Shown: piece after piece, positions 29,375 through 59,813 of the stretch
How the letters are laid out: each line of letters begins with the position of its first letter
How positions within the stretch are numbered: the first letter of the stretch is position 1
Assembly (NCBI GenBank): GCA_021818335.1
Contig: JAKAEJ010000001.1
Location: 1 to 64,000 of the forward strand
DNA from: Pseudomonadota bacterium
GTDB taxonomy: Bacteria; Pseudomonadota; Gammaproteobacteria; Xanthomonadales; Rhodanobacteraceae
Reading direction: 5' to 3'
DNA length: 64,000 bases
Made by a program: the position numbers and the translations under genes
Notes under the pieces: model-generated
Told to the model about the DNA's origin: nothing
The model's input: only the letters and a program-made list of their open reading frames with translations
Database searches by the model: none

Positions 29375-29836
29375 TTAGCCGAGGACGGAGTCGTCGGTAC
29401 CGCCAAGGGCTTGCAGGATCGGGCACTGCTCGGGCGCCCCATGACCAGGACAGGCATCGATCAGCTCGCGCAAACCACGCCGGATGCGATTGAGTTCACG
29501 AACCCGCCGGTCTAGATCCGCAAGCCGCTCAATTGCCCGCTGTCTCACGGCTTCCACGCCGCCTTCGCGGTCTTCAGACAGCGCCAGCAAATCCCGGATT
29601 TCGTCAAGGCGGAAGCCCAGTGCCTTGGCGCGACGGATAAAGCGCAGACGGACCACCACGCCACGGTCGTAGACGCGATAACCCGAGGCTCGGCGTCGCG
29701 GTGCGGGCAACAGGCCCTCGCGCTCGTAGAAACGGATGGTATCGATGGCGACGCCGCTGCCGCGCGCGACCGTACCGATGCTGAGGCTTCCCGTCGCGCC
29801 AGAGGCCGGATTGGTGCGCTTTCCACGCAGGTCCAT
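29375..29836 (-). CDS. MerR-family regulator, heavy-metal-responsive type
   Basis: SIGTVARGSGVAIDTIRFYEREGLLPAP; C-terminal CPGHGAPEQCPIL metal-binding-like motif. Confidence 0.88.
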   Translation of the reverse strand: MDLRGKRTNPASGATGSLSIGTVARGSGVAIDTIRFYEREGLLPAPRRRASGYRVYDRGVVVRLRFIRRAKALGFRLDEIRDLLALSEDREGGVEAVRQRAIERLADLDRRVRELNRIRRGLRELIDACPGHGAPEQCPILQALGGTDDSVLG

Positions 29837-29840
29837 GGCC

Positions 29841-29956: not shown

Positions 29957-29974
29957 CTGTCATCATCCGGTCAC
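29957..29974 (+). promoter_or_regulatory. candidate Pho box upstream of GT4 glycosyltransferase
   Basis: CTGTCAT-CATC-CGGTCAC; further half-site CTGTCAC at 30011-30017. Confidence 0.6.
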
Positions 29975-30140
29975 CTTTCATTCAACATCGCGCCACGCTC
30001 GTGTTACAAGCTGTCACGGCCAGTAAGCGCGGCGCCGGGCGACGCAATGCCGGAACGCCTTGCAGGCTGGTCGTATGGCTGCCCTGTGCTCGGGCAGTCA
30101 GCGGAAGCTTCCCCCGCGGCATCGCCTTGGAGCCGGGTTC

Positions 30141-31301
30141 ATGCGCATCGCCATCGTCAGCGAAACCTACCCGCCCGAAATCAATGGCGTTGCCCTCACG
30201 GTCCACGCATTGGCCGAGGGACTGGCTTCGCGGGACCACGCGGTCGAAGTCATTCGCCCGCGCCAAGCTGGCCCCCATGTTCCCAATCGCAGTGATCGGG
30301 CGCAGTCGTTGCTGCTGCCGGGCATGGCGTTGCCGCGCTACCCGGGACTCCGCATGGGGTTCCCTGCCGCCGCCCGTCTCCGGCGGCACTGGGCCCAACA
30401 ACGACCCGACGCGGTTTACGTAGCCACCGAAGGCCCACTGGGCGATTCGGCAGTCCGCGCGGCGCGAAGCCTGGATATCGCCGTCGCCACCGGCTTCCAC
30501 ACTCGCTTTGACCACTACATGGCGCATTACGTTGCGGCCGCGCTCGAGCCGGTCGCCCGCGCCTGGCTGCGTCGATTCCATCGCCGCGCGCAGGCAGTGC
30601 TGGTCCCCACGAGGGCGCTAAAGGATGAATTGACGGCCATGGGCCTCGTCAACGCCCGGCTCTTGCGACGCACCGTCGACACGCGCCTCTTCACACCGAC
30701 GCGCCGTAGCGAGGCGCTGCGTGCACGGTGGGGCGTGGACGCACAGACCCCTGTGGCCATCTATGTGGGGCGGCTGGCCCCGGAGAAAAATCTGGACCTT
30801 GCCGTGCAGGCTTTCGCCGCATTCGCGGCACGCAATCCTGGCGCGCGCTATGTCTGGGTCGGCGAGGGTCCCGAGCGCACTGCCCTGGCGGCCGCGCATC
30901 CCGAATTCATTTTTGCCGGCGTGCAACGCGAGGAATCCCTGGCGCAGCACTACGCCAGCGCAGACGCATTCCTGTTTCCGAGCCTGAGCGAGACATTCGG
31001 CAACGTGGTCTTGGAGGCCATGGCGAGCGGCCTCGCCGTGCTCGCCTTCGATCACGCGGCAGCGCACGAGCACCTGCGTCATGACATCAACGGCTTGCGC
31101 GTGGCTGCGGGCGACCGCGATGCCTTTGTCAGCGCTGCCTTCCAGCTAGGCCAGGATGCCGCATTGCGCGCGCGCCTCGGCCAAGCGGCACGGGCGGCGG
31201 TCGAAGCGTACAGCCCGGACGCTCTCACCTCGGACTTCGAAAACTTGCTCAGCGAACTAGCCGCTGAATTGCGTCATGGCCAGCCTGCCACCGCCGCTTA
31301 G
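30141..31301 (+). CDS. GT4-family glycosyltransferase (MgtA/SqdX-like)
   Basis: MRIAIVSETYPPEINGVALTVHALAEGL; VGRLAPEKNLDL; FPSLSETFGNVVLEAMASG. Confidence 0.9.
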   Translation: MRIAIVSETYPPEINGVALTVHALAEGLASRDHAVEVIRPRQAGPHVPNRSDRAQSLLLPGMALPRYPGLRMGFPAAARLRRHWAQQRPDAVYVATEGPLGDSAVRAARSLDIAVATGFHTRFDHYMAHYVAAALEPVARAWLRRFHRRAQAVLVPTRALKDELTAMGLVNARLLRRTVDTRLFTPTRRSEALRARWGVDAQTPVAIYVGRLAPEKNLDLAVQAFAAFAARNPGARYVWVGEGPERTALAAAHPEFIFAGVQREESLAQHYASADAFLFPSLSETFGNVVLEAMASGLAVLAFDHAAAHEHLRHDINGLRVAAGDRDAFVSAAFQLGQDAALRARLGQAARAAVEAYSPDALTSDFENLLSELAAELRHGQPATAA

Positions 31302-31833
31302 CCGACCTCGCCCGGTTCTTGGGCTCAGGTTATGCCAGCGCGCCAATCGCTGGGGCGCACAGCGTGCCGTGCGCACCTTCTTCAGTGGCGTCAGCCGGCT
31401 GGGTGATGGTCTGTTCTGGTATGCACTCATGGCTGCCTTGAGCCTGTTCGGTGGCACCCGCGGTTTGCGGGCTACCGCTTCGATGGCGGTTGCCGGGCTG
31501 CTTGCGCTCGGCCTTTACTGGGTGCTCAAGAAGCTGACGCGGCGACCCCGGCCATTCCGGAGCGTGGTCGGCATCGTCGCCCACCTGCCGCCACTGGACG
31601 AGTTCAGCTTTCCATCGGGCCACACGCTGCAGGCGGTCAGCTTCACCATGGTGGCTTGTGCCTGGTTTCCTGTACTGATGGTGCCGCTGCTGATCTTCAC
31701 GCTCCTTGTTGCGGCCTCGCGCATTGTGCTCGGCCTCCATTATCCCGGCGACGTGCTCGCGGCAGCAGGCATAGGCCTGGCACTGGGCGGTGCGGTTCTG
31801 TCGATCGGCATCCTGATGGGCTTTGTTCCCTGA
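31276..31833 (+). CDS. PAP2-family (lipid) phosphatase
   Basis: KKLTRRPRPFRS, FPSGHTLQA, ASRIVLGLHYPGDVLA phosphatase motifs. Confidence 0.9.
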   Translation: MASLPPPLSRPRPVLGLRLCQRANRWGAQRAVRTFFSGVSRLGDGLFWYALMAALSLFGGTRGLRATASMAVAGLLALGLYWVLKKLTRRPRPFRSVVGIVAHLPPLDEFSFPSGHTLQAVSFTMVACAWFPVLMVPLLIFTLLVAASRIVLGLHYPGDVLAAAGIGLALGGAVLSIGILMGFVP

Positions 31834-31845
31834 CCCTATTGGCCC

Positions 31846-32667
31846 GTGCTTCAGCGGACCGCCTGCTACCCTTGCGGGATGCGCAGAACGACCTCCATCG
31901 AGCCACATCGTGCCGGCTCACGCCAACCGATCCCGTCCAAGCCCGCACAGGGCAATCGCGGACGCCTGAGGAGGCTCTCGCGGCCCGCCGTCACGATGCT
32001 ATTCGGACGACTGGCAAGCCTTGATCCGGAGCCTCGAACCGAACTGCACTTCCGCAATGCGTTCGAGTTGCTCGTCGCCGTGGTGCTGTCGGCGCAGTCC
32101 ACCGACGTTGGCGTCAACAAGGTGACGCCGCGGCTGTTTGCGCGGGCCCCGACGCCGGCCGCCCTGCTCGAGCTGGGCGAAGTTCAAGCGGCCCGGCTAA
32201 TCGGATCGTTGGGCCTTTTCCGGAGCAAGGCGCGCCACCTCATCGGACTCAGCCGGCTGCTGGTCGATCGCCATCAGGGCAAGGTACCGGATTCCCGGGA
32301 AGCACTCGAGTCCTTGCCGGGGGTTGGACGAAAGACCGCCAACGTGGTTCTGAACGTCGCGTTCGGCCAGCCCACGATTGCCGTGGATACGCATATCTTC
32401 CGCGTCGCCAATCGCACGGGTCTTGCGCCTGGGCGCACCGTGCTCGATGTCGAGCGCGGTCTGAATGAAGTCGTGCCCCCAGCCTTTCGCCAGCACGCGC
32501 ATCACTGGCTGATCCTGCATGGACGTTATGTTTGCAAGGCGCGAAAACCGGATTGCGGCCGGTGCGTGCTGAATGACCTCTGCTTGTGGCCGGAAAAAAA
32601 CGGCGGCGGGCCGGAAGCCCGCCGCCATTCGTCACCAGGGCAAGTCGATCGCGCTCAGAACGCGTAG
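31846..32667 (+). CDS. nth: endonuclease III (the true start is probably MTMLFGRL or close to it)
   Basis: LLVAVVLSAQSTDVGVNKVTP, LPGVGRKTANVVLN, CKARKPDCGRCVLNDLC FeS motif. Confidence 0.95.
   Translation: MLQRTACYPCGMRRTTSIEPHRAGSRQPIPSKPAQGNRGRLRRLSRPAVTMLFGRLASLDPEPRTELHFRNAFELLVAVVLSAQSTDVGVNKVTPRLFARAPTPAALLELGEVQAARLIGSLGLFRSKARHLIGLSRLLVDRHQGKVPDSREALESLPGVGRKTANVVLNVAFGQPTIAVDTHIFRVANRTGLAPGRTVLDVERGLNEVVPPAFRQHAHHWLILHGRYVCKARKPDCGRCVLNDLCLWPEKNGGGPEARRHSSPGQVDRAQNA
32594..32626 (-). terminator. Rho-independent terminator for the minus-strand porin, inside the 3' end of nth
   Basis: Minus strand: GGCGGCGGGC-TTCCG-GCCCGCCGCC then G and T7; perfect 10-bp stem. Confidence 0.85.
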
Positions 32668-33956
32668 GTGACCATCACGCGGTTATACGTGAAGGGCTTG
32701 TTGCCGGGATTCAGGCCCAAACCGCCATCGGCCTGCTCAATTCGGTCACGCAGGGTCAGTCCCTTCAGGTACCCGTCGAGCTTGTAGATGACATCAAAAT
32801 ACGTGTTGTGGCTATTGCCTCTGTTGGTCGTCGTGTAGTCCGCATACGCGGCGATGACCTGAAGGTTGTCTAGGATGTTGTAGGTGAACTTGACCTTCCA
32901 GGCGTGCCCTGGCCCCATTTCGACCAGGCCGCGGATCATCGACGTGGTGTATAGCGGATCCGTGGCATAGGCAGCGGTGTAAGGCGAGATGATGGCCCCG
33001 CCCCCGATGGCGCCAGATTCGTTTTGGATCTTGTTGTAGGCGACGGAGATGCTGCCGCGCGGAATATCGAGACCGGCGATGACGCCCCATGCTCCAGCCT
33101 TGACGCGCGTGCCGCCGACGCCAAACTGCTTGACGTTGTTTTCGACCAGGTAGTTGTTGCCGCCGCTGGTCTCATCGACGTACTGCGCGCCAACGAACGG
33201 GTTGAAGCCGGTGCCCGTCTTGAGGGTATAGCTACCCTCGAGGTAGCCCATCCGCGCGAAGTTCAGAAAGTTGTAGTACCAAGCTTGGCCCTTGAAACCG
33301 GCATTGGCATAGCTCGTGCCGAGCGCCCAGGTGCCGTTGGCCTCGTGCGCGGTGGCTGGCAGGCCGCCGATGCCACCGTACATCGCATCGCCGGCATAGG
33401 TCGATGGATAGTAAAGGTTGTCCGAGAAGACACCGCCGGAGGTGCGGCTCTTCCAGCCGAAACTCCGCAGCGCGTAGATGTCCCAGCCCTTGGCAGGCAT
33501 GAACACTGCGGAAATGGCGTTGTAGGACGCCGGGATCACGCGCGAATCGCTGCCGCCCATCCACGGGGTATTGAGATACTGGTAACCGGCGCGGATTTGC
33601 ATCAGCGCGTTCTTGTATTGCAGATAGGCTTGGCTCGCAGCGCTGACGGAATCGGAAACGCCCATCAAGGTGCTGTCGACATTCGTCGGCGTCGTACCAA
33701 ACGAATTGGCCGTGGCGAAGGAAGCGCCCAAGCTAAAACCATTCAAGCTGCCAGTCTGCATGTCGACCAAGGCAGCACCCGAGAAAGCGGATAAGTTGCT
33801 TCCGCCGCCATGGAAATCCCGAGTGAAGTAGTAGGCACGCAACTGCCCATCGATGTGACCTTGCGTGAAAAGGTCGCTAAGCGCGTCAGCGTGCGCCGCA
33901 AGGCTGGTGCTGGCAAGCACGGCCGCCACCGCCGCGCCGATGAGGTGTTTACGCAT
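32655..33956 (-). CDS. OprD-like outer-membrane porin
   Basis: Signal peptide; HIDGQLRAYYFTRDFHGG; aromatic-rich beta-barrel pattern; C-terminal YAF. Confidence 0.8.
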   Translation of the reverse strand: MRKHLIGAAVAAVLASTSLAAHADALSDLFTQGHIDGQLRAYYFTRDFHGGGSNLSAFSGAALVDMQTGSLNGFSLGASFATANSFGTTPTNVDSTLMGVSDSVSAASQAYLQYKNALMQIRAGYQYLNTPWMGGSDSRVIPASYNAISAVFMPAKGWDIYALRSFGWKSRTSGGVFSDNLYYPSTYAGDAMYGGIGGLPATAHEANGTWALGTSYANAGFKGQAWYYNFLNFARMGYLEGSYTLKTGTGFNPFVGAQYVDETSGGNNYLVENNVKQFGVGGTRVKAGAWGVIAGLDIPRGSISVAYNKIQNESGAIGGGAIISPYTAAYATDPLYTTSMIRGLVEMGPGHAWKVKFTYNILDNLQVIAAYADYTTTNRGNSHNTYFDVIYKLDGYLKGLTLRDRIEQADGGLGLNPGNKPFTYNRVMVTYAF

Positions 33957-34073: not shown

Positions 34074-34091
34074 ATGACAACGGGATGACCG
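34074..34091 (-). promoter_or_regulatory. candidate Pho box upstream of the OprD-like porin
   Basis: Minus strand CGGTCAT-CCCG-TTGTCAT; GATTAT lies 10 nt downstream. Confidence 0.5.
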
Positions 34092-59795: not shown

Positions 59796-59813
59796 CTGGC
59801 ATCCACCTGTCAC
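59796..59813 (+). promoter_or_regulatory. candidate Pho box upstream of the phosphoesterase
   Basis: CTGGCAT-CCAC-CTGTCAC; CAGAAT exactly 10 nt downstream; start codon 40 nt downstream. Confidence 0.65.

Follow-up and report, generated by a model that had tools for sequence, protein, structure and literature searches.

The window, a 64,000-nucleotide stretch of contig JAKAEJ010000001.1 (assembly GCA_021818335.1, Rhodanobacteraceae), contains a GT4 glycosyltransferase gene and, downstream of it, a PAP2 phosphatase gene, both on the plus strand and preceded by a Pho-box-like site that reads CTGTCATCATCCGGTCAC on the plus strand at 29957-29974. The genome comprises 2,193,607 bases and is 77% complete, and, judged by GT4, it is closest to metagenome-assembled Proteobacteria and Rhodanobacteraceae. 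The features of the locus are as follows:

29375-29839, minus strand: MerR-family gene, the divergent neighbour upstream of GT4
29957-29974, plus strand: Pho box with half-sites CTGTCAT-CATC-CGGTCAC, matching 13 of 14 positions and kept upstream of orthologs
29979-29996, plus strand: third and fourth half-sites CATTCAA and GCGCCAC, weaker, in 11-bp phase, recognised from sequence and logo
30007-30012, plus strand: putative -10-like element CAAGCT, 10 bp past the fourth half-site, suggested by the logo
30141-31301, plus strand: GT4 gene (ATG at 30141, stop codon ending at 31301), 386 amino acids, Pfam PF13439/PF13692
31276-31833, plus strand: PAP2 gene, 185 amino acids, PF01569, integral-membrane

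The two reading frames overlap by 26 bp. The first-pass annotation had placed GT4 and PAP2 next on the plus strand with this overlap and had described CTGTCAT-CATC-CGGTCAC as one mismatch from CTGTCATN4CTGTCAC; coordinates and sequence agree on both points. Located 3' of PAP2 are nth, an Opr-like porin gene, an exonuclease-like gene and pstS-pstC-pstA, and a PhoB gene is present in the genome (352.6 bits against a curated cut-off of 296.2). A weaker Pho-box-like site (34074-34091, minus strand, 12/14) lies upstream of the porin gene (32655-33956, minus strand) and is kept in two loci of the same group (L039, 12/14; L040, 13/14); judged from these sites, a phosphate-limitation porin is possible.

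Pho box and promoter anatomy

Sites were counted at two stringencies. At up to three mismatches, 6 matches were found in the window against 4.07 expected, a loose count that is not special on its own. At up to one mismatch to CTGTCATN4CTGTCAC, the whole genome held only three sites (29957, 34939 and 59796), of which the second precedes pstS (ATG 35020). Permitting T or C as the final base of both half-sites brought three sites in the window to 13/14, compared with 0.2 in shuffles. The site at 59796-59813 (13/14) precedes a PF04185 phosphoesterase CDS (plus strand, ATG at about 59855) with a signal-like N-terminus, and the operon, pstS and phosphoesterase sites make up a Pho cluster on one contig.

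Conservation was assessed in 78 GT4 loci taken from genome records. Upstream of the GT4 start, at approximately 50-90 bp, the box recurs in these loci far beyond what shuffles give. Scores of the best site in the 130 bp before the start averaged 10.9/14 against 8.45 in dinucleotide shuffles (largest shuffled-set mean, 8.68/14), and a site of at least 11/14 was found within that distance in 54 of the 78 loci against 0.87 expected from shuffles and 0/78 in the coding control; since the loci are related, the counts are not those of independent events. The box was also present at the Pseudomonas matsuisoli, Acinetobacter baumannii and P. aeruginosa PA0842 loci, and some orthologs (e.g., L030, L034 and L095) were without a clear box. 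A chance match was rejected on this conservation upstream of orthologs. Assignment of the box to the divergent MerR gene was likewise rejected: MerR occurs in 2 of 80 loci and the box stays with GT4. The distance from box to GT4 ATG is 184 bp here versus about 80 bp in most relatives; this species and genomes G002 and G005 carry roughly 100 bp of extra sequence between box and GT4 start (here 29975-30140) compared with G008, G011 and G012 of the same genus.

Tandem CTGTCAT-type 7-mers with an 11-bp period occupy 29957-29974, and a logo of 46 anchored loci shows four phased half-sites, the two further, weaker ones being shared at +22 and +33, with CA conserved at +26/27 and positions +37 to +39 conserved less strongly. 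The -10-like motif has A at +51 in 87% of these loci, and C at +54 and T at +55 are each found in 67%; anchoring selects the first two half-sites and neither the other two nor this motif. The spacing of CAAGCT is as expected for a -10 element, yet its match to TATAAT is weak. Read from sequence, the promoter anatomy appears to be of the PhoB-activated type, and PhoB would bind at 29957-29996. The earlier reading of a Pho-box-like promoter gains from conservation of the box in 78 loci and from its being one of three near-perfect sites genome-wide. In A. baumannii, a GT4-PAP2 pair (L127:3854-5728) lies behind four phased Pho half-sites.

Assignment of the GT4 and PAP2 proteins

The GT4 protein was compared with plasmid records by tblastn and matched a P. 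aeruginosa gene with 48.5% identity and 97% query coverage (325 bits). The matched gene directly follows plcH (annotated as a phosphocholine-specific phospholipase C) and plcR, and we take it to be PA0842 from the plcH-plcR gene order on the PAO1 map. Identity to PlcP-linked Agt1 enzymes was 34-35%. A maximum-likelihood tree joined PA0842, the A. baumannii GT4 and the window GT4 with other PAP2-linked GT4s in one clade (100/100), separate from the PlcP-linked Agt1 enzymes (100/99) and from an actinobacterial MgtA-like group (100/99) whose members are unannotated; other GT4s of the same genomes, of LPS/EPS type, fell outside the Agt2 clade. Some outgroup branches of this tree, which covered Agt2-clade, Agt1, actinobacterial MgtA-like and other GT4s, are long. 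The first-pass annotation had called the protein an MgtA/SqdX-like GT4; of the characterised enzymes compared, the nearest to it is P. aeruginosa Agt2. A phylogenetic position among LPS/EPS GT4s, which it had named as speaking against its lipid reading, was not found; the protein groups with PA0842/Agt2 instead. An LPS/EPS-type GT4 was accordingly rejected on the tree, and a PIM mannosyltransferase on PDB matches to PimA/PimB of only 41-49 bits versus 325 for PA0842.

Catalytic residues of the GT4 were identified from alignments (H120, R211, K216 and E284-x7-E292, with D at 284 in Agt1), and the predicted structure had a pLDDT of 88. A list of residues that set the Agt2 clade apart from Agt1 yields no tested determinant of sugar choice. 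The top NCBIfam match, at 145 bits against a cut-off of 480, was a GlcNAc-phosphatidylglycerol synthase model, and NDP-sugar dehydrogenases, possible donor suppliers, are encoded in the genome. PA0842/Agt2 has a Pho box, is induced at low phosphate, and on expression in E. coli makes glucuronosyl-diacylglycerol (PMC8528852). By clade membership, the window GT4 is predicted to be an Agt2-type UDP-sugar:diacylglycerol glycosyltransferase, probably a glucuronosyltransferase.

In the PAP2 protein, PF01569 scored 67.5 bits (cut-off 27.2), and the catalytic motifs KX6RP, PSGH and SRX5HX3D were all intact. The structural model (pLDDT 92) had Aquifex LpxE as its nearest solved fold, followed by B. subtilis PgpB/YodM. 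LpxE was both the top Foldseek match (E 6.3e-6, TM 0.81 on target) and the best single-sequence PDB match, whereas a profile search returned E. coli PgpB first, above LpxE. Aquifex LpxE acts on lipid A, C55-PP and PGP, and its structure resembles that of YodM, a PGP phosphatase (PMC6581854); the substrates of E. coli PgpB include phosphatidic acid (PMC7413402). Because folds of the LpxE/PgpB type act on several lipids, the fold leaves more than one substrate in view. PAP2 enzymes that make diacylglycerol are known in bacteria (Streptomyces coelicolor Lpp alpha/beta, PMC3599759), and fold, intact motifs, linkage to GT4 and replacement by PlcP (below) together suggest that this PAP2 is a phosphatidic acid phosphatase supplying diacylglycerol.

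Operon partners and rival explanations

PAP2 adjoins GT4 in 78 of 80 loci, while each other neighbour from the window occurs in at most 4 of 80. Among 41 relatives, a PAP2 ortholog was present in 32/32 genomes with an Agt2-type GT4 and in 2/9 without one (Fisher p 1.6e-6, which ignores relatedness). These two are G031, which has a PlcP-Agt1 pair, and G028, in which the ortholog lies beside an Agt1-like GT4; the remaining 7 of 41 have neither gene. The G028 locus (L154, G028:C112:8000-10500) has PAP2 and Agt1-like GT4 on opposite strands and is a second Agt-PAP2 pairing. Both PAP2-less loci of the 80 are from Rhodocyclaceae and carry PlcP in the PAP2 slot after the Agt2-type GT4 (L113:4194-4901 and L117:1400-2155; 49-50% identical to P. 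aeruginosa PlcP), which fits the earlier description of the pair as a variant of the PlcP/Agt route.

Of 369 genomes sampled across the class, 42 carried an Agt2-type GT4. PAP2 was next to GT4 in 32 of these, PlcP and then PAP2 followed in 3, both were nearby in 1, and neither was adjacent in 6. In one of the six class genomes without adjacent PAP2, the locus is cut at a contig end. PlcP was present in 31/42 genomes with the Agt2-type GT4 versus 104/369 overall (Fisher p 7e-11, ignoring relatedness). Of the 42, the 11 that lack PlcP each have PAP2, and PlcP is present in each of the 6 where PAP2 does not adjoin GT4; taken alone, this pattern of never lacking both is not significant (p 0.17). 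PlcP and PAP2 both occur somewhere in 25 of the 42, and strict exclusivity was rejected on this count and on three loci (L182, L185 and L187) with GT4, PlcP and PAP2 in a row on the same strand; for the same reasons, PAP2 is no simple exclusive substitute for PlcP. PlcP was not found in the present genome (77% complete), nor in the near-complete GT4-PAP2 genomes G011, G012 and G007 of the same genus, and was found in other relatives. Many Xanthomonadales have PlcP-like proteins that are 40-45% identical, most without a strong Pho box. At L169, an Agt2-type GT4 without PAP2 is followed by a gene that, by a look at its sequence, encodes a PlsC-like acyltransferase. In these comparisons, the usual partner of the Agt2-type GT4 is a PAP2 lipid phosphatase and not the PlcP lipase described so far; the earlier reading of the locus is largely supported.

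Four other accounts of the locus were weighed. PAP2 could be an LpxE-like lipid A phosphatase working at low phosphate, with GT4 making a glycolipid or decorating lipid A, so that the two genes would share a regulon and not a pathway. Its similar size and the Foldseek and single-sequence PDB results point this way, and where one operon carries both PlcP and PAP2, another job for PAP2 is conceivable; but PgpB outranks LpxE by profile, the likeness of LpxE to the PGP phosphatase YodM (PMC6581854) makes the fold indecisive, PlcP takes the PAP2 slot in two genomes, and PAP2 is gained and lost together with GT4. We consider this account unlikely, though the most probable of the four. It is distinctly less probable that the Pho-regulated GT4 glycosylates another lipid, ceramide or phosphatidylglycerol, and that PAP2 serves that lipid. 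Caulobacter Sgt1/Sgt2 are PhoB-regulated, ceramide-specific glycosyltransferases (PMC6445935), and the NCBIfam model that scores highest for GT4 is a GlcNAc-phosphatidylglycerol synthase; against this, the characterised clade member PA0842 uses diacylglycerol (PMC8528852), and PlcP, the alternative operon partner, is a diacylglycerol-making lipase.

A marginally lower probability was given to UppP/YbjG-like recycling of undecaprenyl diphosphate by PAP2, with GT4 acting on an undecaprenyl-linked or exopolysaccharide glycan. The best NCBIfam match of PAP2 is an undecaprenyl-diphosphatase model, and C55-PP is a further substrate of PgpB- and LpxE-type enzymes (PMC6581854, PMC7413402). That match, however, is far under the curated cut-off (61 versus 250 bits), GT4 lies in the Agt2 lipid clade apart from other GT4s, there is no fixed glycan cluster because neighbours are not conserved in the 80 loci, and neither Pho control nor replacement by PlcP would be expected. 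Least probable by a wide margin is a chance Pho-like site and an operon free of phosphate regulation: the loose count in the window and the orthologs without a clear box favour it, but the box is conserved in 78 loci as well as at the Pseudomonas, Acinetobacter and PA0842 loci, and near-perfect sites are rare genome-wide.

Proposed pathway and comparison with known systems

The reading we consider probable is that of a PhoB-controlled two-gene GT4-PAP2 operon for membrane glycolipid synthesis at phosphate limitation. At low phosphate, PhoB would bind the tandem half-sites at 29957-29996 and activate transcription of GT4 and PAP2. PAP2 would dephosphorylate phosphatidic acid, and perhaps related lipid phosphates, to diacylglycerol and released phosphate, and GT4 would transfer a sugar to the diacylglycerol, by analogy with PA0842 most likely glucuronic acid from UDP-glucuronate. 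The product would be an anionic, phosphorus-free glycolipid in place of phosphatidylglycerol. Box, promoter anatomy, GT4 clade, PAP2 linkage and partner replacement are observed at the locus and among its relatives; from them we infer PhoB activation at low phosphate, formation of diacylglycerol from phosphatidic acid by PAP2, and its glycosylation by GT4.

The cytoplasm is where Agt-type enzymes using nucleotide-sugar donors operate. In PgpB-type PAP2 enzymes the active site faces the periplasm (PMC7413402), and the pathway would therefore require passage of diacylglycerol across the bilayer. The substrate of PAP2 is the weakest step of the proposal: PAP2 co-occurs with PlcP, its active site is likely to be periplasmic, and it resembles LpxE. 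With somewhat better than even confidence, the pair may represent an undescribed and widespread branch in Gammaproteobacteria, independent of PlcP, in which a dedicated PAP2 converts phosphatidic acid to diacylglycerol for an Agt2-type glucuronosyltransferase; under the same reading, phosphatidic acid would come from new synthesis or from turnover on the periplasmic side, and the branch would span Xanthomonadales, Acinetobacter, Thiobacillus and part of Pseudomonas.

Genome surveys assign low-phosphate lipid remodelling largely via plcP. The pair supplies a predicted sugar-lipid enzyme and a candidate diacylglycerol source, and if the proposal is true, such remodelling through Agt2-PAP2 would also be predicted for most members of the Xanthomonadales (Xanthomonas, Stenotrophomonas, Lysobacter, Rhodanobacter and Dyella), for Acinetobacter and for other environmental bacteria, some of them lacking plcP. 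A. baumannii makes an unidentified lipid, U3, at low phosphate (PMC11828411), to which its GT4-PAP2 pair may relate. A Pho-controlled hydrolase paired with a GT4 is already known as PlcP-Agt (PMC4796936, PMC8528852), and a phosphatidate phosphatase as diacylglycerol source was raised by Sebastian et al. as a possibility for cyanobacteria (PMC4796936). No description of a PAP2-Agt pair or operon was found in the literature searched, most subscription journals being outside its scope, and searches for PAP2 together with PlcP, or with PhoB and glycosyltransferases, returned nothing relevant.

Among known systems, P. aeruginosa Agt2 (PA0842, in PlcP-Agt1/Agt2 lipid renovation, PMC8528852) shares the GT4 clade, the Pho box and the presumed diacylglycerol acceptor; it differs in following plcH-plcR without an adjoining PAP2 in a genome that has PlcP, whereas here PAP2 overlaps GT4 and PlcP was not found in the 77% complete genome. 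Bacterial PAP2 phosphatidic acid phosphatases (PgpB; S. coelicolor Lpp alpha/beta, PMC3599759) share superfamily, intact motifs and integral-membrane character, but the known ones act in PG/C55-P or triacylglycerol synthesis, and a Pho-controlled glycolipid operon was found described for none of them. LpxE, the lipid A 1-phosphatase, is the closest solved fold and of like size; it differs in its low identity (25%) and in that the window PAP2 is linked to a glycolipid-type GT4. Alphaproteobacteria and marine bacteria have a PlcP-Agt operon (PMC4796936) that likewise combines a Pho-controlled, diacylglycerol-producing hydrolase with a GT4, which makes MGDG/GADG, but its hydrolase is the metallophospholipase PlcP where the present locus has PAP2, and the window GT4, at about 34% identity to Agt1-type enzymes, belongs to the Agt2 clade.
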